Origin: a virus
Length of the DNA: 25,662 nucleotides
Reading direction: 5' to 3' (one strand)
Virus record (IMG/VR): IMGVR_UViG_3300042924_006813
Coordinates: 1-25,662 of that record
Shown here: positions 1,228 to 25,662 of the stretch, piece after piece
How positions within the stretch are numbered: position 1 is the stretch's first letter
Layout of the letters: each line of letters begins with the position of its first letter
Made by a program: the position numbers and the translations under genes
The notes under the pieces: model-generated
Database searches by the model: none
The model's input: only the letters and a program-made list of their open reading frames with translations
Told to the model about the DNA's origin: nothing

Positions 1228-1965
1228 TTACGACCAAGTTACAAAATCAAACTCAAACTGACCATCATCTACCAAACCAATGGATACCCCCCCCTGTTTT
1301 TCCGAAATTTTTACCTTTTTATTTGTTTTTTTTCTATTATTTTTCGAAAAAAATACGAACCCATTATTTTTTATAACTTTATTATTATTTTTTTTATCAG
1401 GTCCAAAACCATGCGCAGCCAATTTTAGAACATCAGTTAAACTCGCATCGCTTTTTTGTCTGTTTGCTTTATGAGATATAATTTGCACATTGCCAACAAC
1501 ATATCCTTTGCTGGCGTCTATTCGATCTATTGATATAGAGTTGCTTCTTTTTGCATCCGTTAAACTCATAGATGAATATACTAAATCAATATCATCAAAT
1601 ATCGGACACTTAATTGGTAAAACTGGATATTTTTCTCTAAGATGTTGTATCAAAACAATAGAAGAATCATTTGTTAATTTTACTCTACCTTCTCTAGTTC
1701 TACCACAACAATTAGTAGTCAATCTTTCAACTCTTTTCCAACGTGCCTGTTCAGATGTCGCGCATAACTCGTTTGTCTTGTTTCTTTTTTCTTTTTCAAC
1801 TTTTGTGTCACACGGTCTGCAAATTTTTCTACCTTTTTTATATGAATTTTCATTTATATTGTCGCCGGGAATTAAAATAAGCGAACAAACTATGCACTTT
1901 CTTGGTTCGTTGGATATGTTATCCATAATTATTGTACATACTACATTTTTAGCCGCCGATGTCAA
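1228..1965 (-). CDS. HNH-type (homing-like) endonuclease with paired CxxC motifs
   Basis: The first half has CIVC and CRPC pairs separated by a Tyr/Lys-rich stretch, the usual zinc-binding arrangement at the N-terminus of many phage HNH/endonuclease VII-like proteins. The middle contains SISIDRIDASKGYVVGNVQI and SHKANRQKSD, matching the Asp-Arg-Ile-Asp, Gly-Tyr, Gly-Asn-Val and Ala-Asn-xx-Lys pattern typical of phage HNH nucleases. The C-terminal 60 residues are Lys/Asn-rich and less conserved in character. A second Met at 1926 (14 residues in) lies just before the first Cys pair and may be the true start. It lies between the small-gene region and the glycan cassette, in opposite orientation to the latter. 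A run of eight G in the coding strand (1287-1294) near the 3' end could slip. Likely role: free-standing homing nuclease or DNA nicking. Confidence 0.75.
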   Translation of the reverse strand: MTSAAKNVVCTIIMDNISNEPRKCIVCSLILIPGDNINENSYKKGRKICRPCDTKVEKEKRNKTNELCATSEQARWKRVERLTTNCCGRTREGRVKLTNDSSIVLIQHLREKYPVLPIKCPIFDDIDLVYSSMSLTDAKRSNSISIDRIDASKGYVVGNVQIISHKANRQKSDASLTDVLKLAAHGFGPDKKNNNKVIKNNGFVFFSKNNRKKTNKKVKISEKQGGVSIGLVDDGQFEFDFVTWS

Positions 1966-2100: not shown

Positions 2101-2910
2101 ATGCGCGTGTTAGTAACCGGGGGTTCAGGTTTTATCGGTACACATTTAATAAAAAAATTATTATCTGATGGGCATGATGTTTATAATGTAGATAAAATTA
2201 ACAGCCGCGCACTTCCTCCCGATAAACAAAAAACAATAGACATATTAGATATTGATGTTGATGATAGTTTTTTTATTGGTATGGATGCCATTATTCATTT
2301 AGCGGCAATGGTAAGTGTGCCGAAATCATTTGAAGATCCAGTAAATAGCTTTGGTAATAATGCTTTCTTGACTGTAAAGATGTTAAAAATTGCCAAGCAA
2401 CATAATATTAAAAAATTCTTTTTCGCTTCTAGCGCAGCAGTATACGGAGATAAAGAAGGAACAGTTAGTGAAACAGATATTACTGAACCTAATAGTCCAT
2501 ATGGCTTAGATAAATTAGTATCTGAAAAATATATAAGAATGTATACTCAATTATGGAATGTAGATCATATTATTCTTAGATTCTTTAATGTTTTCGGTGA
2601 AGGACAAAATCCTCAATATGCTGGAGTGATAACAGCATTTAATATCGCCGCGCAAAATCAACAACCATTAATTATATATGGAGATGGAGAACAAACTAGG
2701 GATTTTATAAGCGTAAACGATATATGCAATTATATTTCTAAACTGATTTCTATAGATGTTAAAAATGAAACATTCAATATCGGTTCTGGCAAATCTATTT
2801 CTATAAAAACGCTTGCAAAACAATTTGGTAATAATATAATATATAAGGAAGCAAGAAAAGAAGTCCGTCATTCGTGCGCTAATATAGAAAAAATAAAAAA
2901 CTATGAATAA
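2101..2910 (+). CDS. NAD-dependent sugar epimerase/dehydratase, extended SDR, C-terminally short
   Basis: This is a GalE/WbpP-type extended short-chain dehydrogenase acting on a nucleotide sugar in the cytoplasm. The Rossmann motif GGSGFIG is at residues 7-13, the catalytic Ser region FASSAAVYG at 108-116, and Tyr134-x3-Lys138 follows in the correct context. The stretch GDGEQTRDFISVNDI (194-208) is typical of UDP-hexose 4-epimerases and related 4,6-dehydratases. At 269 residues it is shorter than the usual 300-330; it stops right after the conserved VRHSCANIEK segment, so the terminal part of the substrate lobe is missing. Its last 8 bases overlap the next gene. I see no continuation in the other frames, so it is a shortened protein rather than a frameshift. 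It probably supplies the sugar donor for the following glycosyltransferases; the exact substrate cannot be read. Confidence 0.85.
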   Translation: MRVLVTGGSGFIGTHLIKKLLSDGHDVYNVDKINSRALPPDKQKTIDILDIDVDDSFFIGMDAIIHLAAMVSVPKSFEDPVNSFGNNAFLTVKMLKIAKQHNIKKFFFASSAAVYGDKEGTVSETDITEPNSPYGLDKLVSEKYIRMYTQLWNVDHIILRFFNVFGEGQNPQYAGVITAFNIAAQNQQPLIIYGDGEQTRDFISVNDICNYISKLISIDVKNETFNIGSGKSISIKTLAKQFGNNIIYKEARKEVRHSCANIEKIKNYE

Positions 2911-5647
2911 ATACGATTATTTTTCAAAAAACTTAATTGAAATCACTAATTTCGATAAAAATAGAGGAACAGTTTTTTACAAATCGCACAAAAAGATAGA
3001 TTCAAATTTAAAAATAATCATTGCTGACAAACATAATGGTTTTATTATTCATCAAGAATTATTAGGTGTTTTTCCGTCAAATGTAGAGTATTATACTGAT
3101 TTTTCAATTTTTAAAAAATTTATACATCAAGATATTTTAGTTATTTTTAAATCGAATGACGAATTTTTTTTAATAGAAACTCTTAGGCTTTATGACGAGC
3201 CTAATTTCAACCCTTATTCTAATTTTAAATTTAATTTTGATGCAGATTTTTGTAGTTATTATGAAATTTTTGAAAAAGAAATGTATAAGAAGTTTTCAAT
3301 TGATGTGGAAGAAGGTGATGTTGTTGTTGATATAGGTTCTAATGTTGGCGCTTTTATTAAATACGCAAATGATAAAAAAGCTAAAATAATTTATTCATGT
3401 GAACCTAATCCAGCTTGCATAAAAATAATAGAAAAACATTATGCTTTAAATAATGTAATATTAAATAAATACGCAATATCTGATAAAAATGGTATTTCAG
3501 AACTTGAAATACCATTCAATAGTGATACCTCTGGATGTTCAAAAATTACAGAAGCTAATGTAAAAAATACATTTACAGATGTAAAAACAATACAAATTGA
3601 AACAATAACTTTTAAAAATTTTATAGAAAAAAATAATATCTTAAAAATAGATTATTTAAAAGTAGATTGTGAAGGTGGAGAGGCTTTTGTATTTAAAGAT
3701 GAAAACAAAACATTTTTTCAACAAAATGTTAAAAAAATTGTTTTAGAATTTCATAACGAAAGTAAGTTCGATATTATTAAACTTCTTAAATCGATAAATT
3801 ATTCTATTGATATCGTAGATGAAAATCAAAAAACAGGAATGATTTATGCAAAAAATAAAAATTTTTATGATTTAGATATTGTTTTAAGTTTTTTTGTCAG
3901 TAAAAACAGTTTATCAACATTTGATAAAACTATTGAGTCTTTTCACAAGCATTGTAAAAATTTAAGTCTTATAAAAGAATTATTTTTAGTAAATGATAGA
4001 TGTCCAGATATTTATGCTATAAAATGCTTAATAAAAAATTATTTTCCGCAAGTTAAAATCTCTGAGATTAACAAGACAAATGAAGTAAAAAATAATCACG
4101 CTGAAATTTTTGAAACTTTTAGAAAAGAATTGATTACTCGCGATGCAAAATATTGTTTCTTTTTAGAAGATGATTGGCTTTTTATTAAAGATTTTGATCT
4201 ACTTGCTTTGACAAACATTTTAAATAAATCAAATTATTGTCAAATAGTTTTGTCTACGGATTTTAAAAATTTAGATGTAAATAAAAATTTAAATTGGCCT
4301 ACTTCCGAGTTTTTAGGTTTTATTAAAAATGAAAAAAAACCATTTTTTCACATAACTAAAAAGATAGAAGAAGAATTTTTTTGGTCAGAAGTGATTGACT
4401 ATACTTGTTTCTCTTTAAATCCATCGTTAATAAAAATTGATTTTTTTAAAAAAGGTGGATCTATAGAAAACGATCCTGTTTTTGAATTATTATATAATTT
4501 ATCTAACAAAGAACAAACTAATTTATTATCAGAAGAGCATTTTTGCTATCATATTGGTGATTTAAAAAAAATAAAGCTAGAACAACAAAATACTAAATCA
4601 AATTTAAAAATAGGAGTTCTTTTTGCTTCGTATAACTGTGCTGATCATATTGATAGATGTTTTCAACCTTGGTTAAATTTGCGCGAAGAATTGAATTTAG
4701 TTTTAGCTTCTACAAATGGAAGATACGATCTTTCAGATTTAAAATTTGATTATAAAGGTAATGATTCTCTTGTAAAATTATTAGGTAAAAATTTAGATTT
4801 CTTAGTTCATTCAACAAGTGTTAACCATAGATGGAGCGAAGAAGAAAGTAGGACATATATGTTAAATTATATGTTAGATAGAAAAGTTGATTTAATTTTT
4901 GTAGTTGATGCTGATGAATTTTATACAGAAGAACAAATAAAAAATATTTTAAAATACGTTCAAGAAAATTCTAATTACGATGCTTATAACGTGCAGTTTA
5001 AAAATTATGTGATAAAATTACCTTATTGGATTGAAGGTTTTAATAAAAGCGTAGTCTATTGGTGCAATAGGCATGGAGGAATAAAATGCTTTAATTTTGA
5101 TTGTGAAATAGCTTATAATGATGGAACAATAATTCAAAAAAACACTAATGTAAATATTATACCTAAAAATATAGCTTTCGTAGACCATTATTCTTGGTTA
5201 GAGAATGATCCAAGAACTAAAGAAAAGACTGTATTGCAAAATGTTAAATATTTTGGTGAAGAAAATTTAAAATGTTCTTTTTGTTACGATGAAAATGACA
5301 ATTTAATAGTAAATGAAAATTTTTATAAAAAAAGAGTTGGCCTCTTGCCAACTTTCCACAAAACTATAACCAAACATTGTTGCGATTTTGATATATATAT
5401 AAATGAAAATGATAACAGCTTTCACATAAAAAATGTGTTAGTAAATAAAAATTTTATTTTTAGTATTTATAATGGAGAAACTAACGATTTGATTTACGCG
5501 CCATTAATGAATTTAACAGCTAATTTAAATTATTATATAAATTGTGGCATAAATCTGAAAAGCTATAAAAGTTTTAAAATTATTGTTATAGATGTAGAAA
5601 CAAATAAAGAAATTCATGATGAGTTGTTATTTTTAAAATTTAAATAA
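2903..5647 (+). CDS. FkbM methyltransferase fused to two glycosyltransferase-like domains
   Basis: The protein has 914 residues and at least four parts. Residues 1-130 are unrecognised. Residues about 135-290 are an FkbM-type SAM-dependent O-methyltransferase, with VVDIGSNVGA (141-150), CEPNP (166-170) and KVDCEGGE (253-260). Residues about 325-560 look like a GT-A fold, with LVNDR (362-366) and the acidic LEDDW (421-425). Residues about 568-790 are a second GT2-like domain, with ASYNCADHIDRC (575-586), VVDADEF (667-673) and HYSW (762-765). The tail (825-914) is beta-rich and may bind glycan. It would build and O-methylate a glycan. It overlaps the epimerase by 8 bases, so the two are probably translated together. 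There is no signal peptide or membrane segment. Composition is extremely AT-rich, with Asn, Lys and Ile codons dominant. The order of reactions and the acceptor are unknown. Confidence 0.85.
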   Translation: MNKYDYFSKNLIEITNFDKNRGTVFYKSHKKIDSNLKIIIADKHNGFIIHQELLGVFPSNVEYYTDFSIFKKFIHQDILVIFKSNDEFFLIETLRLYDEPNFNPYSNFKFNFDADFCSYYEIFEKEMYKKFSIDVEEGDVVVDIGSNVGAFIKYANDKKAKIIYSCEPNPACIKIIEKHYALNNVILNKYAISDKNGISELEIPFNSDTSGCSKITEANVKNTFTDVKTIQIETITFKNFIEKNNILKIDYLKVDCEGGEAFVFKDENKTFFQQNVKKIVLEFHNESKFDIIKLLKSINYSIDIVDENQKTGMIYAKNKNFYDLDIVLSFFVSKNSLSTFDKTIESFHKHCKNLSLIKELFLVNDRCPDIYAIKCLIKNYFPQVKISEINKTNEVKNNHAEIFETFRKELITRDAKYCFFLEDDWLFIKDFDLLALTNILNKSNYCQIVLSTDFKNLDVNKNLNWPTSEFLGFIKNEKKPFFHITKKIEEEFFWSEVIDYTCFSLNPSLIKIDFFKKGGSIENDPVFELLYNLSNKEQTNLLSEEHFCYHIGDLKKIKLEQQNTKSNLKIGVLFASYNCADHIDRCFQPWLNLREELNLVLASTNGRYDLSDLKFDYKGNDSLVKLLGKNLDFLVHSTSVNHRWSEEESRTYMLNYMLDRKVDLIFVVDADEFYTEEQIKNILKYVQENSNYDAYNVQFKNYVIKLPYWIEGFNKSVVYWCNRHGGIKCFNFDCEIAYNDGTIIQKNTNVNIIPKNIAFVDHYSWLENDPRTKEKTVLQNVKYFGEENLKCSFCYDENDNLIVNENFYKKRVGLLPTFHKTITKHCCDFDIYINENDNSFHIKNVLVNKNFIFSIYNGETNDLIYAPLMNLTANLNYYINCGINLKSYKSFKIIVIDVETNKEIHDELLFLKFK

Positions 5648-5710: not shown

Positions 5711-8700
5711 ATGAAAAAAAAAGAATTGTATCACAAAATCAATCCAAATTCTTTAGGTGATGCTTTAGCAGCCACACCAACTTTAAGAAAAATTTCTAAG
5801 TCTTACGATCAAAAAATAAATGTTGTAACTCATGTTCCTGAATTATTTAAAAATAATCCATATGTTAAAAATATTTATTCTTTTGAACAATTTAATAAAT
5901 TAAAATTATCTGCCGAAACTGAAGTTTTTGAAACTTTTTGTGGTTGTGGAGTAAAAAATAATAATGGTGTTGAAAAAAAACATAACCTTTTTGACATCAG
6001 AAGATTTCATTCTGTTGATTTAGGATTTGATCTATTAGATACAGAAATGCATTATGATTTTGTTCCTGATTTAAATAATAATTATCACATTTCTCAAAAA
6101 TACATTTGCTTGCATGCCGCCACTTCTTGGGAGTCTAGAACATACTCTAAAGAAAATTGGCAAAATCTGATAAATGAACTAGAAAAATTAAATTATTTTA
6201 TAGTTATAGTAGGAAAAAACGCTACAGAACACGGCTTTTGGAATATTGATAAAAAAATTCACTCTTTATCTTTTAAAAATGGATTAGATTTGAGTAATAA
6301 ATTAAACCTATCTGAATTATGGCATGTTTTAAATAATTCTGAATATGTAATAACTATGGATTCAGGTATATTGCATTTTGCTGGTACGACTGATACATTC
6401 ATTATACAGCTAGGATCATCTATAAATAATAAATTACGCGCACCATATAGAAATAATTCTCAAGACTATAAATATAAATATATTTCTGGTCCTTGTGATA
6501 TTTTTTGCGGCTCCGATATGAAATACGGTATAAAAGAATGGGGAACAATAAATAGTGTGCCTCCATTGGTAAAATGTTTAGAAAATAAATCAACTTTCGA
6601 ATGCCATTCTAAAGTAAGCGATGTCGTAGATTTTATCAAAACAAGAAACGTGTTAGTTGAAATAAATAATACTTCCAAAAAATATTTATTTATTGCTGGA
6701 CATTTATCTACTGGTGGAGGTCCAAAATATTTAGAATGGTTAATAAAGAAAATTAAAAATGAAGGAAATACAATTAAAGTTGTTGAATGGAATCTTTATA
6801 GTCCAAATTTTATTGTTCAAAGGAATGAAATAATAGACACAATTGGAAAAGATAATTTTATAAGTGTCGGATCTTATTATGAAGATGATTCTACATTTTA
6901 CGATAAGGAAAAAAATATAAAAAATTATATTAATGATTTTGCGCCTGATTATATTCATTTAAATGATTTACCAGAGGAGTTTGCTATAAAGCCTATGTCT
7001 AAAGATTTTCTTGAGTTTTTATATAAAAAAGATAGATCTTATAAAATATTAGAGACATGCCATACTTCACAATTTGATTTTAATAAAAAAATTTATATAC
7101 CTGATGCTTTTTGGTTTTGTTCTGACTATCATTTAAAATTATCTAAAAATATAAATGTGCCAAAGAAAATTGTCGAAATGGATTTGCCTTTGAATATTCG
7201 TCCAAATAGAGATGATACCTTGAAAGAATTAGGTTTAGACCCTAGTTATTATCATGTTTTACAGGTTGGATTATTTCATAAAAATAAAAATCAAAAATTT
7301 ACATTCGACGTTGCTAAAAATTTCTTGGATGACAAGATTCTTTTTCATTTTGTAGGAAACATGTGTTATATTGATGAATGTGATATAGATAGAAATCAAA
7401 AAAATTGCATGATTTGGGGAGAGCGCGATGATGTGCAAAAATTTATGTCTTGTATGGATTTATTTGTTATGCCATCACTACAAGAATTAAATCCAATTTC
7501 TATAAAAGAGGCACTTTCTTGGAATATGAAGTGCTTCATAAGTGATTTAGATGTATATAGAGATAAGTATAAAGATAATAATAATATTTCTTTTATAAAA
7601 GAACATAATCTTTTACAATATATTGTTAATTTACCTTTATCTAATATTAGTGAATCATATGTAGAAAATTTCTTTTTTGCAGATTTTCGCAAACCAGTAA
7701 GAATAGAAATATCTGGAAATAATTCTTACAAATACGATGTTAAATTTATTAATAAATTAAATAATAAGATTTTTTATGAATCTTTGTTAACTAATAATAT
7801 GTGGGCGGCTTCGGAACAAGAGTCTGCTGAAAATGTTAAAATAATTATGCAAAATCTAACTACAAAACAAATTTTTAATTTTGAAAAATCTAATGATCGA
7901 AAAGTTTGTGTAGCAAATGAATCTGGAAGTCTAGGGGATACATTAGCTTGGACTCCAGTTGTAAATCGTTTTGCTGTAGAAAATAATATTACAATTGATT
8001 ATTTTACGCCTTATAAAAATTTATTTGAAGCTAAATATCCAAATATAAATTTTTATGATTATAGTTATAAAAACAATATTTCTGCTGACAGTCAAATTTA
8101 TGAATTAAAATTTGATTGCGGTAAATTAGATAATACAAAAAATCTACAAGAAATAGCGTCTGATATTTTGAATATTTATCATAAAGAAGAAAGACCACAA
8201 ATAAATATTGCAAAGCCTTTTAAGAAAAACTTTAATAAAAAATATGTTTGTATAGCAACACATTCCACTTCACAATTTAAATATTGGAACAATCCTATTG
8301 GATGGCAACAAACGGTTGATTATTTAAAATCTATTGGTTATGATGTTATCTGTATAGATAAACAAGAATATTTTGGAACTGATAAAAAAATGAATTGCAT
8401 ACCTAAAGGATGTATTAATAAAACTGGTGATATTTCTTTACAAGAAAGAATGAATGATTTACATTTTTGTGATTTCTTCATTGGCTTGACTTCTGGCTTA
8501 TCCTGGTTAGCTTGGTCTTTGGAAAAACCAGTTGTTTTAATTTCAGGAATTTCAAAAGAAAATACAGAATTTTTTACTCCTTATAGAGTTACAAATACTA
8601 ACGTATGTCATGGATGTGCAACTGAAAAAGGTTATGAATTTGATAGAGACGATTGGATGTTTTGTCCTAAAAATAAAAATTTTGAATGCACTTCATCGAT

Positions 8701-8761
8701 AACATTTGAAATGGTAAAAGAACAAATAGATAAATTAATAAAAGATCATAATTTAAAATAA
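5711..8761 (+). CDS. Giant GT9-GT4-BAHT (autotransporter heptosyltransferase-like) fusion
   Basis: I chose the ATG at 5711 (MKKKELYHKI); an in-frame ATG ten codons earlier is less likely. The 1016-residue protein has three glycosyltransferase units. Residues 1-310 are GT9/heptosyltransferase-like: NSLGDALAATP near 13-23, HAATSWESRTY at 135-145, TMDSGILHFAG at 215-225. Residues about 323-640 are a GT4 GT-B domain: STGGGPKY, GLFHKNKNQKF at 520-530 and an E-x7-E motif (E592-E600). Residues about 660-1016 resemble BAHT/TibC protein O-heptosyltransferases: a small beta domain, then GSLGDTLAW (739-747), HSTSQFKYWN (851-860), GLTSGLSWLAW (925-935) and Cys at 966, 969, 985 and 993, placed like the metal-binding Cys of that family. 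BAHT enzymes add heptose from ADP-heptose to Ser in repetitive adhesins. The nearby HldE-like kinase supports a heptose-related donor. Substrate and acceptor are inferred. Confidence 0.85.
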   Translation: MKKKELYHKINPNSLGDALAATPTLRKISKSYDQKINVVTHVPELFKNNPYVKNIYSFEQFNKLKLSAETEVFETFCGCGVKNNNGVEKKHNLFDIRRFHSVDLGFDLLDTEMHYDFVPDLNNNYHISQKYICLHAATSWESRTYSKENWQNLINELEKLNYFIVIVGKNATEHGFWNIDKKIHSLSFKNGLDLSNKLNLSELWHVLNNSEYVITMDSGILHFAGTTDTFIIQLGSSINNKLRAPYRNNSQDYKYKYISGPCDIFCGSDMKYGIKEWGTINSVPPLVKCLENKSTFECHSKVSDVVDFIKTRNVLVEINNTSKKYLFIAGHLSTGGGPKYLEWLIKKIKNEGNTIKVVEWNLYSPNFIVQRNEIIDTIGKDNFISVGSYYEDDSTFYDKEKNIKNYINDFAPDYIHLNDLPEEFAIKPMSKDFLEFLYKKDRSYKILETCHTSQFDFNKKIYIPDAFWFCSDYHLKLSKNINVPKKIVEMDLPLNIRPNRDDTLKELGLDPSYYHVLQVGLFHKNKNQKFTFDVAKNFLDDKILFHFVGNMCYIDECDIDRNQKNCMIWGERDDVQKFMSCMDLFVMPSLQELNPISIKEALSWNMKCFISDLDVYRDKYKDNNNISFIKEHNLLQYIVNLPLSNISESYVENFFFADFRKPVRIEISGNNSYKYDVKFINKLNNKIFYESLLTNNMWAASEQESAENVKIIMQNLTTKQIFNFEKSNDRKVCVANESGSLGDTLAWTPVVNRFAVENNITIDYFTPYKNLFEAKYPNINFYDYSYKNNISADSQIYELKFDCGKLDNTKNLQEIASDILNIYHKEERPQINIAKPFKKNFNKKYVCIATHSTSQFKYWNNPIGWQQTVDYLKSIGYDVICIDKQEYFGTDKKMNCIPKGCINKTGDISLQERMNDLHFCDFFIGLTSGLSWLAWSLEKPVVLISGISKENTEFFTPYRVTNTNVCHGCATEKGYEFDRDDWMFCPKNKNFECTSSITFEMVKEQIDKLIKDHNLK

Positions 8762-8762
8762 G

Positions 8763-9404
8763 ATGAATATTTTATTAACCGGAGCTTCTGGATCTTTAGG
8801 CAAAGAGTTTGTAAAAGAGTTTCAAAAAAGAAATTTTAATTATTACACCCAAACAAATTCTATCGATTTAGGTGAAAAAAATATTTTATGTAATTTTAAT
8901 GATCCTAAAAATTTACTATCAATAAAAGATTATATTAAAAAAAATAATATAACTCATTTAATAAATAATGCAGGTATTTATATTAATGGAGAATTAAACG
9001 ATTTAACTGATCAAAGCGTTGTCGATTTGATAAATATTAATTTACTAAGTCCAATTTTGTTGTCTAAATATTTATACGAACACCTTGCAGAAACCAATCA
9101 ATCAGGAAAAATAATAAACATAAATTCAATAGCTGGAAAACAGCCAAACTATTTAGAATCAGTTTATTCTGCCTCTAAGCATGGTCTTGCCGGTTTTGGG
9201 GCATCGTTATCAATTAATCAAAAAAAATCAAGAATTCAAATTATAGATTGTTTTGTTGGCGGAATAAAAAGTAATATAACTAAAAACAGATCGAATTATG
9301 ATTCTTTAATGCAGCCATCAACCATTTCAAAATTTATTGTTGACTTGTTGCAGTCTAAAGAGGACTATACAGTGTCTTCTATAGATTTAAGAAATAATGT
9401 ATGA
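8763..9404 (+). CDS. Short-chain dehydrogenase/reductase (classical SDR)
   Basis: A compact 213-residue NAD(P)-dependent oxidoreductase. The cofactor motif TGASGSLG is at residues 6-13, NNAG at 68-71, the catalytic Ser at about 122 (ININSIAG) and YSASK at 135-139, so all catalytic residues are present. It is a little shorter than the usual 240-260 residues, the missing part being at the C-terminal substrate lobe. The ATG follows the previous stop by one base, and its own stop overlaps the next start as ATGA, which points to translational coupling with the MDR dehydrogenase. In this context it probably reduces or oxidises a sugar or sugar-derived carbonyl; the substrate is not readable. A small-molecule reductase unrelated to sugars is possible but less consistent with the neighbours. 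Confidence 0.85.
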   Translation: MNILLTGASGSLGKEFVKEFQKRNFNYYTQTNSIDLGEKNILCNFNDPKNLLSIKDYIKKNNITHLINNAGIYINGELNDLTDQSVVDLININLLSPILLSKYLYEHLAETNQSGKIININSIAGKQPNYLESVYSASKHGLAGFGASLSINQKKSRIQIIDCFVGGIKSNITKNRSNYDSLMQPSTISKFIVDLLQSKEDYTVSSIDLRNNV

Positions 9405-10420
9405 AAGCTGTTATTTTAGTTAAAAAAAATGAACCACTGATAGTAGATGATATAAGTTTACCGGAACAACTTTTTTTTGGTCAAGTTAAAGTAAAAAATA
9501 TTATAAGCGGTTTGTGCGGCGCTCAATTGCAAGAAATAGCTGGATTAAAAAATAATGAAAAATTCATGCCTCATTTGTTAGGTCATGAAGGTTGTGGTAT
9601 TGTTGAAGAGATAGGTCAAGGAGTGAACAAAGTTAAAGTCGGAGACAAGGTTATTTTACATTGGCGAAAAAGCTCAGGAATAGAATCTGAATTTCCAATA
9701 TATACTTGGAATGATAAAAAAATATCTGGAGCAAAGTTAACTACGCTTTCAGAATATTCTATTGTTTCAGAAAATAGAATTACAAAAGTAAATAATGATA
9801 TATGTAATAATTTTTGTGCTTTATTGGGATGTGGACTTTCTACGGGACTAAGCGTAGTAAATAATGAGGCTAATATTAAGTTTGGTGAAAGCGTATTAGT
9901 TCTTGGATGTGGTGGAGTTGGTCTTAATTGTATTTTCGCTTCTAAATTATCACATGCTAGTCCAGTTGTTGGGGTAGATATTAGTATTTATAAACAAGCG
10001 CTTACAATAAAAAATGGTGGTGAATTTTATCATATTGATTCTTTAAATCAGTTGTTTGATAAGTATAAAAAATTTGATTGTATCATAGATACGACAGGAA
10101 ATTTAGACTTAGTTTCAAAATGTATTCCTTATTTATCTGAACAAGGAAGATGTATATTTATTTCTCAACCAAAACAAAATTCTTCGTTAATTATAACTAA
10201 TCCAATAAATTTCTTTTCAAGTAAAGGATTATCTTTTAAGACAACTCAAGCTGGGGGTTTTGATCCAGACGTAGATATTCCAAAGTACATAAAATTATAC
10301 TTGAACAAAGTTATAAACATAGATAATATAATCACAGATTTTTACGATTTAGATAGCATAAATGAAGCTGTAGCTAAATTAATGACTGGCACTTCTGGCA
10401 GAATTTTAATAAAAATATGA
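9401..10420 (+). CDS. Zinc-dependent medium-chain dehydrogenase (MDR, Tdh/AdhP-like) lacking the structural-zinc lobe
   Basis: The 339-residue protein belongs to the medium-chain alcohol/polyol dehydrogenases. Catalytic zinc ligands can be assigned: Cys39 (GLCGAQ), His62-Glu63 (LLGHEGCG) and Cys144 (GCGLSTG). The Rossmann motif VLGCGGVG lies at 167-174, followed by GVDIS. The loop after GDKVILHW (about residues 88-105), where relatives usually carry four Cys binding a structural zinc, has none, so that lobe is reduced. Start and stop overlap both neighbours by four bases (ATGA), placing it firmly in an operon with the SDR and the TPP enzyme. It likely oxidises or reduces a sugar or polyol hydroxyl, or a product of the TPP enzyme. 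The relationship to a threonine or sorbitol dehydrogenase is only at family level. Confidence 0.85.
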   Translation: MKAVILVKKNEPLIVDDISLPEQLFFGQVKVKNIISGLCGAQLQEIAGLKNNEKFMPHLLGHEGCGIVEEIGQGVNKVKVGDKVILHWRKSSGIESEFPIYTWNDKKISGAKLTTLSEYSIVSENRITKVNNDICNNFCALLGCGLSTGLSVVNNEANIKFGESVLVLGCGGVGLNCIFASKLSHASPVVGVDISIYKQALTIKNGGEFYHIDSLNQLFDKYKKFDCIIDTTGNLDLVSKCIPYLSEQGRCIFISQPKQNSSLIITNPINFFSSKGLSFKTTQAGGFDPDVDIPKYIKLYLNKVINIDNIITDFYDLDSINEAVAKLMTGTSGRILIKI

Positions 10421-11607
10421 ACTATATCTCTAAACAAGGGTTGATTGATTTTGAAAACGAAATAATTAAACTGTATAAAGATTGCAAGCTTCCGTTCCTT
10501 TTCCATTTATCAGGTGGAAATGAAGATCAGTTAATTGAAATTTTCAAAGAAATTAAAGATGGTGACTATGTAATCTCTAATCACAGAAACCATTATCACG
10601 CTCTTCTCGCTGGAATCCCGGCGGATGAGTTGCGCCAAAGAATCGTGGATGGCAGAAGTATGTTTATTTATGACAGGAAGCGCAATTTCTTTACGTCAGC
10701 GATCATTGGCGGTACTCCAGCTATTGCGGCGGGAATCGCTCTTGCTCTTAAGCGCAAGGGGTCTTCTCAAAAGGTGTGGTGCTTCGTTGGTGACGGCACA
10801 GAAGATTCTGGGCATCTTTTTGAGGCAGCAAGATATGTTTCTGGTTTTGATTTGCCATGCAAATTCATCGTAGAAGATAATAATAGATCTGTTTGTACTC
10901 CAAAGAGCGAAAGATGGGGTCAATCTGTATCACCTCCGATGCCTCCTTGCGTAGAAAGATATCGATACGACATCACTTATCCTCACGCAAGAATTGACGA
11001 GAATATTGATCTAAAGAAAACAAAGCAAAAAACTGATGCTGAATATTTTCCATATTTGCTTCCAGAAAAGATGCCGTCTTTTGATATTGATCCAAATATT
11101 TCATTTAAGAACGCTGTTACTGAAGCTATGACAGAGATTGGTAAAGCAAATTCTGTATTTATTGGATACAATGTTAAGTATGGAAACGCAATGGGTAATC
11201 TTATAAATGTAGAAGATAGCAAAAAAATTGAAACGCCTGTTGCTGAAAATCTTATGGCTGGACTTGCAATCGGAATGTCTTTTGAAGGATTCAAGCCTGT
11301 TGTTTATTATGAACGTCACGATTTCATGTTGGTAGCGGCAGATGCTATCGTTAATCATGCTAATCATATCGAAAGAATTTCTCATGGAGAATATGAGTGT
11401 CCAGTAATATTTAGAACAGTGGTTGCTGATAGCGGTCCTTTCTATTCTGGACCAACTCATTCTCAAAATTTTACAGCAGGATTTAGAAATATGATTTCTT
11501 TTCCAATTTATGTTCCAGATACTGGTGCAGAAGTATTAGATGCTTATAAAAAAGCATTACATTCTAGGAGACCATCTATGGTTGTCGAAAGAAAAAGCAA
11601 ATTCTAA
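10417..11607 (+). CDS. Compact single-chain TPP enzyme (E1 alpha plus E1 beta/transketolase-like)
   Basis: The 396 residues combine two modules normally found on separate E1 subunits. Residues 1-200 resemble the E1-alpha PP domain: SNHRNHYHALLAG (54-66), GGTPAIAAGIALA (98-110) and the TPP motif GDG (125-127) to EDNN (153-156). Residues about 225-396 resemble the E1-beta/transketolase Pyr domain: PVAEN with the cofactor-activating Glu276, and GPTHSQNF with a catalytic-type His348. The C-terminal E1-beta domain and lipoyl-domain partners are absent, so it is unlikely to be part of a dehydrogenase complex. Ketol or acyl transfer is more likely, as in transketolase or the AviB1/AviB2-type enzymes that add two-carbon branches to sugars. 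Part of the gene (about 10570-10960) is visibly more G+C-rich than its neighbours, suggesting separate acquisition. The ATG overlaps the MDR stop. Catalytic residues look intact. Confidence 0.8.
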   Translation: MNYISKQGLIDFENEIIKLYKDCKLPFLFHLSGGNEDQLIEIFKEIKDGDYVISNHRNHYHALLAGIPADELRQRIVDGRSMFIYDRKRNFFTSAIIGGTPAIAAGIALALKRKGSSQKVWCFVGDGTEDSGHLFEAARYVSGFDLPCKFIVEDNNRSVCTPKSERWGQSVSPPMPPCVERYRYDITYPHARIDENIDLKKTKQKTDAEYFPYLLPEKMPSFDIDPNISFKNAVTEAMTEIGKANSVFIGYNVKYGNAMGNLINVEDSKKIETPVAENLMAGLAIGMSFEGFKPVVYYERHDFMLVAADAIVNHANHIERISHGEYECPVIFRTVVADSGPFYSGPTHSQNFTAGFRNMISFPIYVPDTGAEVLDAYKKALHSRRPSMVVERKSKF

Positions 11608-12338
11608 TGAAAAAGAAAATTTTAGTAATAGGTGATAGTTGTAGAGATGTTCATATTTATTGTTCATCTAGCAGAATGTGTCCAGACAAGCCAGTGCCAA
11701 TTTTAAAAATTATTGATCAAAATGATAATCCTGGTATGGCGAAAAATGTTTATAGAAATATAAAATCTATTGTAGAATCTTGTGATTTACTAACGAATAC
11801 AAACTGGCACAACATTACTAAAACTAGATATGTACATAAAACTACAAATCATATGTTTTTTAGAGTAGATTCTGCCGAAGAAATAAAAAGGATAAATATT
11901 GATTCAATAAATTATAATTATGATCATATAGTTATTTCAGATTATGATAAAGGATATTTAACTGAAGAAGATATCATAACAATATCTTCAAATCATAATT
12001 CTGTATTTTTAGACACAAAAAAAATATTAGGTTCGTGGGCTAATAAAGTAAAATTTATAAAAATTAATAATCATGAATATGAAAGATCTAAAAATTTTAT
12101 AACAGAAGAGCTTAACAATAAAATAATAAAAACCTGTGGTGAATATGGATGCTATTATTTAAATGAAAGATTTCCTGTTGAACAGCAAGAAGTTATTGAT
12201 GTGTCTGGTGCTGGAGATTCTTTCTTAGCTGGTTTAATTATTGAATATTCTAAAAATAAGGATATTAGAGCGTCTATAGAATTTGCAAATAAATGTGCTA
12301 GTAAAGTTGTTAGTCAAAAAGGTGTTAGTGTGATATGA
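11607..12338 (+). CDS. PfkB-family sugar kinase, HldE/RfaE kinase-domain-like
   Basis: The 243-residue protein matches the kinase half of HldE (D-glycero-beta-D-manno-heptose-7-phosphate kinase). The start ILVIGDSCRDVHIYCSSSR (5-23) mirrors the HldE entry VVGDxMLDRYxxGxxxR, followed by PDKPVPILKI and NPGMAKNV (41-48) at the sugar-binding loop. Then come ISDYDKGYL (110-118), FLDTKK (134-139) and the PfkB signature DVSGAGDSF (198-206) with the catalytic Asp204. It is about 70 residues shorter than the usual kinase domain and has no nucleotidyltransferase half. The ATG overlaps the previous stop (TAATG). Substrate is probably a heptose phosphate or related sugar; GmhA-, GmhB-, adenylyltransferase- and HldD-like partners are not in this window and might come from the host or elsewhere in the phage. 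Confidence 0.8.
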   Translation: MKKKILVIGDSCRDVHIYCSSSRMCPDKPVPILKIIDQNDNPGMAKNVYRNIKSIVESCDLLTNTNWHNITKTRYVHKTTNHMFFRVDSAEEIKRINIDSINYNYDHIVISDYDKGYLTEEDIITISSNHNSVFLDTKKILGSWANKVKFIKINNHEYERSKNFITEELNNKIIKTCGEYGCYYLNERFPVEQQEVIDVSGAGDSFLAGLIIEYSKNKDIRASIEFANKCASKVVSQKGVSVI

Positions 12339-12359: not shown

Positions 12360-13067
12360 ATGAATAATTTTTTAACAGTAGGTGTGGAAAAAAATACTAT
12401 TAATAAAAACTACCGTCAATTAATGAAAAAATTTATTGAAGAGACTGCGGTTGAAATTTTTGATTTTAATCAATATGAATTAAATGTAAAAGTAGAGCCT
12501 AATGATTTAGTCTTAGATTTAGGATGTTCTTTTGGTTATTTTTATTTTAAAAATTTGCGTAAAAATATAACTTATATTGGTGTTGATGGTAGTATTGATT
12601 GTTTAAAAGATTTTTATGAAAACTTAAATAAAGATAACAGACCTATTCTTATAAATAGTTTTATAACAGATGATAAAAAAATTTATGATTGTAAACCGTT
12701 TTTTCATGACGCGCCTTCTAAAGAAGTAGTTAGTATTTCTTTTGCAGATTTAATTAAATTATTAAATAAAAAAATTGATTTTTTAAAATTTGATATTGAA
12801 GGTGCAGAAATGGATTTCTTCGATAATGAATCAAATTATAAATTGTTAAAACAAAATGTTAAAAAATTCTCTGGCGAATTTCATTTATTAAATAGATCTC
12901 ATTCCCGAGAAAAAATAAATGAAGTGTTAAGAAAGCTTTCTGTAGATCCTGAATTAGATTTGAAAATTTATAGTATTAACGCTGTAGATATTACAAATTC
13001 TTATTTTAATAGTGGAGATTATTATTCAGAAATAATTATATCTAGCAAAGTCAACAATAATATATAA
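12360..13067 (+). CDS. FkbM-family methyltransferase
   Basis: A free-standing 235-residue SAM-dependent methyltransferase. Motif I is VLDLGCSFGY (51-60), the second acidic region YIGVDGS (72-78), and KFDIEGAE (143-150) is the FkbM hallmark, followed by GEFHLL (172-177). FkbM enzymes O-methylate hydroxyls of sugars or polyketides. It is clearly different from the FkbM domain of the 914-residue fusion, so the phage carries two. It starts 21 bases after the kinase stop, behind TAATATAAATCTATTT, without a Shine-Dalgarno sequence, and closes the glycan cassette. Expected role: terminal methylation of the phage-made glycan. The stop codon is embedded in a perfect 20-base AT palindrome. Confidence 0.8.
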   Translation: MNNFLTVGVEKNTINKNYRQLMKKFIEETAVEIFDFNQYELNVKVEPNDLVLDLGCSFGYFYFKNLRKNITYIGVDGSIDCLKDFYENLNKDNRPILINSFITDDKKIYDCKPFFHDAPSKEVVSISFADLIKLLNKKIDFLKFDIEGAEMDFFDNESNYKLLKQNVKKFSGEFHLLNRSHSREKINEVLRKLSVDPELDLKIYSINAVDITNSYFNSGDYYSEIIISSKVNNNI

Positions 13068-25322: not shown

Positions 25323-25662
25323 ATGCCATCTAATGATTTTTCAATAACAATAAGTTCTAATGCAAATAATATAGCTTTATCCACTCAAACTCTAGGTCCA
25401 GTAGGTCCATCTGGAACTTCTGGAACTAGTGGTATAGGTATTCCAGTTGGTGGTACAGTTAATCAAGTTCTTGCCAAAGCGAGTTCAACTAACTATGATG
25501 TGGTTTGGGTGGATCAAACTGGTGGTGGAGGCAGTGGAGGTAGTGCGGGAACTTCAGGTAGCTCAGGTTCATCTGGTACTTCTGGCAGCAGTGGTTCGTC
25601 TGGAACTTCTGGTGGTACAGGTTCATCTGGCACTTCTGGTAGCAGTGGTTCGTCTGGAACTT
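25323..25662 (+). CDS. Collagen-like Gly-Ser/Thr repeat tail fibre, 3' end outside the window
   Basis: The frame starts MPSNDFSITISSNANN and stays open for 113 codons to the right edge. After GPVGPSGTSGTSG comes PVGGTVNQVLAKASSTNYDVVWVDQ-type sequence (about residues 41-64), a module common in phage tail fibres. From residue 65 onward it is a Gly-x-Ser/Thr array (GSGGSAGTSGSSGSSGTSG) with no Pro-Pro. It probably forms an extended fibre or adhesin shaft. Dense Ser/Thr makes it a strong candidate for O-glycosylation by the phage-encoded glycosyltransferases (inference). It follows the small beta-rich protein after fourteen bases. Length and receptor-binding end are unknown because the gene runs out of the window. 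Confidence 0.8.
   Translation, partial: MPSNDFSITISSNANNIALSTQTLGPVGPSGTSGTSGIGIPVGGTVNQVLAKASSTNYDVVWVDQTGGGGSGGSAGTSGSSGSSGTSGSSGSSGTSGGTGSSGTSGSSGSSGT
25566..25662 (+). repeat. 54-base tandem repeat in the fibre gene
   Basis: The stretch from 25566 (GGTTCATCTGGTACTTCTGG) recurs with third-position changes at 25620, a period of 54 bases or 18 residues. Within it are shorter nine-base units encoding Gly-Thr/Ser-Ser. Such arrays expand and contract by recombination or slippage, altering fibre length. The array continues beyond the window. Confidence 0.8.

Follow-up and report, generated by a model that had tools for sequence, protein, structure and literature searches.

A Phage-Encoded GT9-GT4-BAHT Protein Predicted to O-Glycosylate Ser/Thr-Gly Repeat Stalks

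The window analyzed here (the whole of a linear viral contig of 25,662 bases, positions 1-25,662 of IMG/VR record IMGVR_UViG_3300042924_006813) encodes a single protein with three glycosyltransferase units, the last of which is a true TibC-family (BAHT) domain. We predict, with a probability of about 0.68, that this protein is a phage-encoded multi-step O-glycosyltransferase that adds a first sugar to Ser/Thr residues in the collagen-like stalks of tail fibres and then lengthens the glycan. The prediction builds on the domain make-up, the conserved residues and GT4 coupling of the BAHT unit, the missing autotransporter repeat and a genomic link to Ser/Thr-Gly repeats.

Domain architecture

The plus-strand frame is open and gives 1016 residues from the ATG, or 1026 if translation began at a TTG 30 bases upstream. 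Profile searches, phmmer and a structure model bear out the original prediction of three GT-B units in one chain, in the order GT9, GT4, BAHT (Table 1). The GT9 unit matches PF01075 (5.9e-23 over the full protein; the strongest stretch is residues 119-250), and the Asp of its SLGD motif is invariant in 10 relatives. Residues 501-632 of the GT4 unit match PF00534 and PF13692 above the cut-offs (7.6e-10 and 2.1e-8). The TIGR04414 (hepto_Aah_TibC) profile matches residues 658-1008 with 291 bits (1.1e-86), relative to a curated cut-off of 200 bits, and the best PDB match by phmmer is TibC (4rap, E 1.5e-57 over residues 652-1010). The motifs that had first pointed to this family, HSTSQFKYWN and GLTSGLSWLAW, begin at residues 851 and 925. 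An AlphaFold2 monomer model has a mean pLDDT of 83. In a PDB fold search with this model, TibC chains rather than ordinary LPS GT9 enzymes take the first 21 places (E 2e-27, target-length TM 0.73), and GT4 enzymes follow. The architecture recurs in other contigs at 98, 85, 55 and 49% identity, and thus is not a product of chimeric assembly.

Comparison with TibC

Residue mapping by alignment places the catalytic Asp110 of TibC at D743, the donor-site Thr226/Lys230/Arg286/Trp305 at T853/K857/R913/W932, and the iron-finger Cys 339, 342, 358 and 370 at C966, C969, C985 and C993, a putative iron finger (roles in TibC from PMC4358343). Every sequence aligned (87/87 viral and 31/31 genome sequences) has the catalytic Asp, the donor Trp and the full set of four Cys, partly by selection, as the search pattern includes one of the four Cys and the genome-scan pattern includes two. 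The predicted four-Cys signature is present, but it is not specific to BAHT: the GT9 unit has a second such cluster, also invariant in 10 relatives. Shared with TibC and AAH (BAHT, TIGR04414; PDB 4RAP, 4RB4; PMC4358343) are the common fold, the N-terminal beta domain, the catalytic Asp, the Thr/Lys/Arg/Trp contacts and the Cys4. Unlike them, the phage enzyme belongs to a separate clade and is fused to GT9 and GT4 units.

The phage enzyme also differs from TibC at two sites of known importance. Two hydrophobic residues (F265/V266) on the beta-hairpin of the TibC thumb tip build the dodecamer, and charged mutations there give inactive dimers (PMC4358343). The corresponding residues are K892/K893, and the tip is variable across the whole phage clade (the alignment is gapped in places and the placement approximate). 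Given the two Lys and the inactive dimers of charged TibC mutants, a TibC-like ring is unlikely, or is held in another way. The tip residues of the dodecamer interface sought at this site are not conserved; the label "processive", which rests on that dodecamer, is not supported, and the choice of heptose is only predicted. TibC P300 confers selectivity for ADP-D,D-heptose, and AAH, with Ser at that position, takes both epimers (PMC4358343). The phage unit has T927 here, from which relaxed epimer selectivity is a fair guess.

Gene neighborhood and donor sugar

The phage context that had been proposed is confirmed: downstream, the right half of the window encodes PhoH, a sigma-like protein (by eye), an ERCC4-type nuclease and the terminase large subunit, followed by head-region genes. 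Host assignment from the terminase and portal was abandoned, as the terminase matches are only distant, to phages of varied hosts, and the portal had no match. A Shine-Dalgarno-like motif precedes only 1 of 21 gene starts in the window, which may point to a host making weak use of that signal. Positions 1-1000 have a G+C of 0.48 and a strong AT skew (about 0.22-0.41 G+C in the rest of the window) and hold only short minus-strand ORFs that lack a family assignment.

The left half holds an island of sugar genes, from the epimerase through the second FkbM methyltransferase, with the triple glycosyltransferase gene within it. The epimerase (left) and PhoH (right) borders are constant in L003, L004 and L005 and the genes in between vary; thus, glycan genes seem to be exchanged at this site. 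At its left edge is an endonuclease VII-like gene that could drive this exchange, and a similar-looking gene occupies the same place in L003 and L004. The 914-residue FkbM fusion is another multi-domain glycan enzyme of the island, and its GT2-like part (residues 569-811) matches the insert in the L005 BAHT fusion chain (42%). Because both this part and the FkbM methyltransferase at 12360 have counterparts inside other BAHT fusions, the island genes appear to be tied to one pathway.

The order SDR, dehydrogenase, thiamine-pyrophosphate enzyme, carbohydrate kinase is as in cyanophage P-TIM68 (34-64% identity). Searches with tblastn gave no BAHT match in the P-TIM68 and S-SM2 genomes; both have genes annotated as phosphoheptose isomerase and nucleotidyltransferase, which the window lacks. 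ADP-heptose is the favored donor, as judged from the conserved site, and the PfkB kinase is a candidate donor-supply gene; its P-TIM68 counterpart sits near the annotated phosphoheptose isomerase. Absent from the window is a full ADP-heptose pathway, and GmhA was found in 1 of 16 BAHT phage records tested, so the donor would have to come from the host or be a different one. GmhA was discarded as a sign of the phages' own heptose supply (1/18 records): the two cyanophages with annotated isomerases were also negative, and thus the strict GmhA model is of little use here.

Table 1. Features of the window and small Ser/Thr-Gly repeat proteins near bacterial BAHT genes. Borders of the glycosyltransferase units are approximate.
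Feature	Record	Position	Strand	Details
HNH/endonuclease VII-like gene	window	1228-1965	-	phrog_3322, 6.7e-16
NAD-dependent nucleotide-sugar epimerase	window	2101..2910	+	PF01370, phrog_540; conserved in L003, L004, L005; left border of island in relatives
FkbM methyltransferase fused to glycosyltransferase-like domains	window	2903..5647	+	914 aa; profile matches
Triple glycosyltransferase GT9-GT4-BAHT	window	5711..8761	+	1016 aa; profiles, phmmer, structure model
N-terminal GT9 (heptosyltransferase-fold) unit	window	5711..6640	+	residues 1-310; PF01075; SLGD motif (D17); Cys 262/266/289/298
Middle GT4 unit	window	6686..7630	+	residues 326-640; PF00534/PF13692; BshA/WaaG-like fold
BAHT/TibC-type unit	window	7664..8758	+	residues 652-1016; N-terminal beta domain, D743, T853/K857/R913/W932, Cys4 966/969/985/993
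Short-chain dehydrogenase (SDR), sugar cassette	window	8763..9404	+	PF00106; 34% to Prochlorococcus phage P-TIM68
Zinc-dependent dehydrogenase, sugar cassette	window	9401..10420	+	PF08240; 50% to P-TIM68 and Synechococcus phage S-SM2
Thiamine-pyrophosphate E1/transketolase-like enzyme, sugar cassette	window	10417..11607	+	PF00676/PF02779; 64% to P-TIM68, 59% to S-SM2
PfkB kinase	window	11607..12338	+	nearest named family heptose-7-phosphate kinase (rfaE domain I), below cut-off; 54% to P-TIM68 kinase
FkbM methyltransferase	window	12360..13067	+	52% to C-terminal extension of L004 BAHT fusion
Start of collagen-like (Ser/Thr-Gly) repeat protein	window	25323..25661	+	ORF cut by contig end; weak PF01391, below cut-off
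Small Ser/Thr-Gly repeat protein	L097	3596-3931		near BAHT
Small Ser/Thr-Gly repeat protein	L099	11183-11806		near BAHT
Small Ser/Thr-Gly repeat protein	L099	8437-8817		near BAHT
Small Ser/Thr-Gly repeat protein	L101	7760-8967		near BAHT
Small Ser/Thr-Gly repeat protein	L107	8881-9759		near BAHT
Small Ser/Thr-Gly repeat protein	L109	8899-9759		near BAHT
Small Ser/Thr-Gly repeat protein	L110	8915-9883		near BAHT
Small Ser/Thr-Gly repeat protein	L112	11181-11879		near BAHT

Distribution and phylogeny

No described counterpart was originally known for the protein. Relatives are common: at least 581 viral stretches encode them (581 confirmed out of 600 matched in a viral contig scan with a BAHT alignment), and TIGR04414 matches occur in 1 of 42 random viral contigs. 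Genome contigs yielded at least 31 BAHT sequences, by a different search pattern, and no ratio is to be drawn between the viral and genome counts. At least nine other contigs (L002-L005, L013, L015, L017, L023, L033) share the single-chain GT9-GT4-BAHT fusion with the window; in the L005 chain a GT2 is inserted among the units. BAHT is fused to GT4 in 37/87 viral loci and adjacent to GT4 in 36/87 (73/87 together), versus 4/31 genome loci.

BAHT-GT4 chains are also encoded by a 735 kb phage (L008, LR756501) and by Mel-JY01 (L007), an isolated Microcystis phage that could serve as a laboratory model. The Mel-JY01 protein (WWT39291.1, 1226 residues) is annotated for one domain only, as "methyltransferase FkbM". 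It shares a C-terminal BAHT (42% identity) and a GT4 unit with the protein described here, and Ser/Thr-Gly repeat proteins are encoded close by, but it lacks the GT9 unit and has other middle domains.

In a tree of 118 BAHT domains (quick search, midpoint root), TibC and 16 bacterial sequences stand apart from a branch that unites every viral sequence (86) with 15 from genome contigs; the split has an SH-aLRT of 99. The autotransporter acceptor repeat TIGR04415 was found in 6 of 7 TibC-clade genomes tested versus none of 7 phage-clade genomes. None of 15 phage records matched it, the window (a fragment) included, and the repeat was ruled out as the phage acceptor. The proposed link to autotransporter-type glycosylation thus does not extend to the viral members, which have Ser/Thr-Gly repeats instead. 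In the open-access literature (subscription journals being outside the scope) we found no description of a phage BAHT or of a Ser/Thr-Gly repeat as acceptor. The phage branch of the TibC/BAHT protein-glycosylating family is large and apparently undescribed.

Ser/Thr-Gly arrays in phages

Arrays of Ser/Thr-Gly repeats, of the kind searched for in the bacterial genomes below, are present in 31/41 BAHT viral contigs versus 1/42 random viral contigs (Fisher p 5e-13), a contrast somewhat favored by the greater average length of the BAHT contigs. Among contigs of at least 100 kb the counts are 9/9 and 0/3, and when BAHTs are grouped at 60% identity, arrays occur in 23 of 27 groups. In the reverse test, BAHT is present in 23/48 contigs chosen solely for the repeat, versus 1/42 (p 4e-7); some array-bearing contigs, long ones included (402 kb), lack it. 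Of the phage array proteins, eight were tested: all have matches to tail-fibre families and to Pfam collagen, and four also have a Peptidase_S74 chaperone. Ser/Thr-rich Gly-X-Y tracts number 94 in 28/86 BAHT loci, versus 13 in 3/120. Proline-type or mixed tracts number 35 versus 22 (2.6 versus 2.1 per 100 kb); lacking a clear per-kb enrichment, proline-type collagen was dropped as the associated repeat.

An array gene is adjacent to BAHT in 4/86 phage loci, which is not above chance (permutation p 0.58). Direct adjacency in phages was rejected as a signal, and contig-level and bacterial tests were used instead. The truncated repeat ORF of the window lies 16.5 kb from the BAHT gene, and its strict array matches begin between 25554 and 25626. 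The viral association may partly be a lineage effect, the viral contigs sharing ancestry; fragmentary contigs and the choice of pattern also limit how it is to be read.

Ser/Thr-Gly arrays beside bacterial BAHT genes

Among Gammaproteobacteria of the phage clade, seven genomes have a gene for a small Ser/Thr-Gly repeat protein next to the BAHT gene or two genes away (Table 1). These proteins have a signal-peptide-like start, by eye. The hosts of the loci are methanotrophs and other Gammaproteobacteria. A strict DNA pattern of four (S/T)G(S/T) units was searched genome-wide and mapped back to the BAHT loci. All array matches lie less than 6 kb from BAHT in five of eight genomes (L097, 8/8; L099, 32/32; L101, 21/21; L110, 9/9; L106, 10/10), as do 14 of 16 in L112. 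The joint chance under random placement is roughly 1e-14, with genomes taken as independent and the arrays of each genome as one placement. In L107 and L109 (Methylobacter) the repeat of the adjacent gene is looser and escapes the strict pattern, and the strict arrays lie elsewhere. In five TibC-clade genomes, the locus retrieved around BAHT contained no array. The BAHT and the small repeat protein form a possible two-gene glycoprotein system, and the bacterial loci provide the strongest independent support for the repeat as acceptor.

Proposed function and alternatives

Protein O-glycosylation, the role first suggested for this protein, is supported as likely by these sequence comparisons. 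We propose that the BAHT unit would act first: on Ser/Thr of repeats that are collagen-like (Gly-X-Y), rich in Ser/Thr-Gly and free of proline, it would place a sugar, most likely heptose with ADP-heptose as donor. Extension of this sugar would then fall to the other two units of the chain, GT4 and GT9, and the neighboring FkbM methyltransferases may cap the glycan. The phage would direct this enzyme to the repeat stalks of its tail fibres, and 25323 is probably the start of one such fibre; tethering of the units would let one chain complete each site. Sugars on the stalk, which is collagen-like but lacks proline, would stiffen or protect it, or would shield or tune the receptor-binding apparatus. 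O-glycosylated Thr can stabilize collagen helices that lack hydroxyproline; that this operates in phage stalks is a guess. Mycobacteriophage virions are glycosylated, and the likeness lies in the phage-encoded transferases proposed to modify their virion proteins; to our knowledge, these belong to other families, and no collagen-like repeat acceptor is known there. Capsid glycosylation has been suggested for Maravista (PMC11256854).

Both GT9 and GT4 families also make LPS, and the nucleotide-sugar genes of the island resemble those of P-TIM68 and S-SM2. The fusion might thus remodel host surface sugars (LPS core or another polysaccharide), for example against superinfection, with the BAHT fold acting on glycolipids. 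However, the active-site residues and N-terminal beta domain of BAHT are retained, and the association with Ser/Thr-Gly repeat proteins runs both ways and includes closeness at single loci in bacteria; we consider this reading unlikely. Marginally less probable still is O-glycosylation of some other protein (major capsid, head/neck or host surface adhesins), with the repeat link a lineage effect. The next gene downstream encodes a head-closure/neck protein in 12/85 viral BAHT loci, and in phages BAHT and repeat genes are not neighbors more often than chance; yet phage lineage poorly explains the repeat genes by bacterial BAHTs, and arrays accompany most BAHT sequence clusters. A reading in which BAHT survives only as a structural or regulatory remnant, with the GT4 and GT9 units doing the work, seems highly improbable: the unconserved thumb tip would fit, but highly diverged sequences still have the catalytic Asp, the donor Trp and the metal Cys.

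Implications

For the family, and with somewhat less confidence than for the single protein, we think it probable that this phage-dominated TibC branch glycosylates proline-free Ser/Thr-Gly repeats. The targets would be phage tail fibres and, in methanotrophs and other bacteria, small proteins that look secreted; in phages the branch would build the glycan together with GT4 and sometimes GT9, in single-chain form, and glycosylated stalks would be widespread in uncultivated phages. Ser/Thr-Gly stalks recur in the tail fibres of such phages, and we know of no explained chemistry for them. The proposal supplies an acceptor rule that can be tested on an enzyme branch known from sequence alone, with the bacterial two-gene loci as a minimal test system, and, if true, a compact single-chain tool for O-glycosylation. 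If it holds, many phages would have glycoprotein tail fibres, and this would bear on adsorption, stability and recognition.
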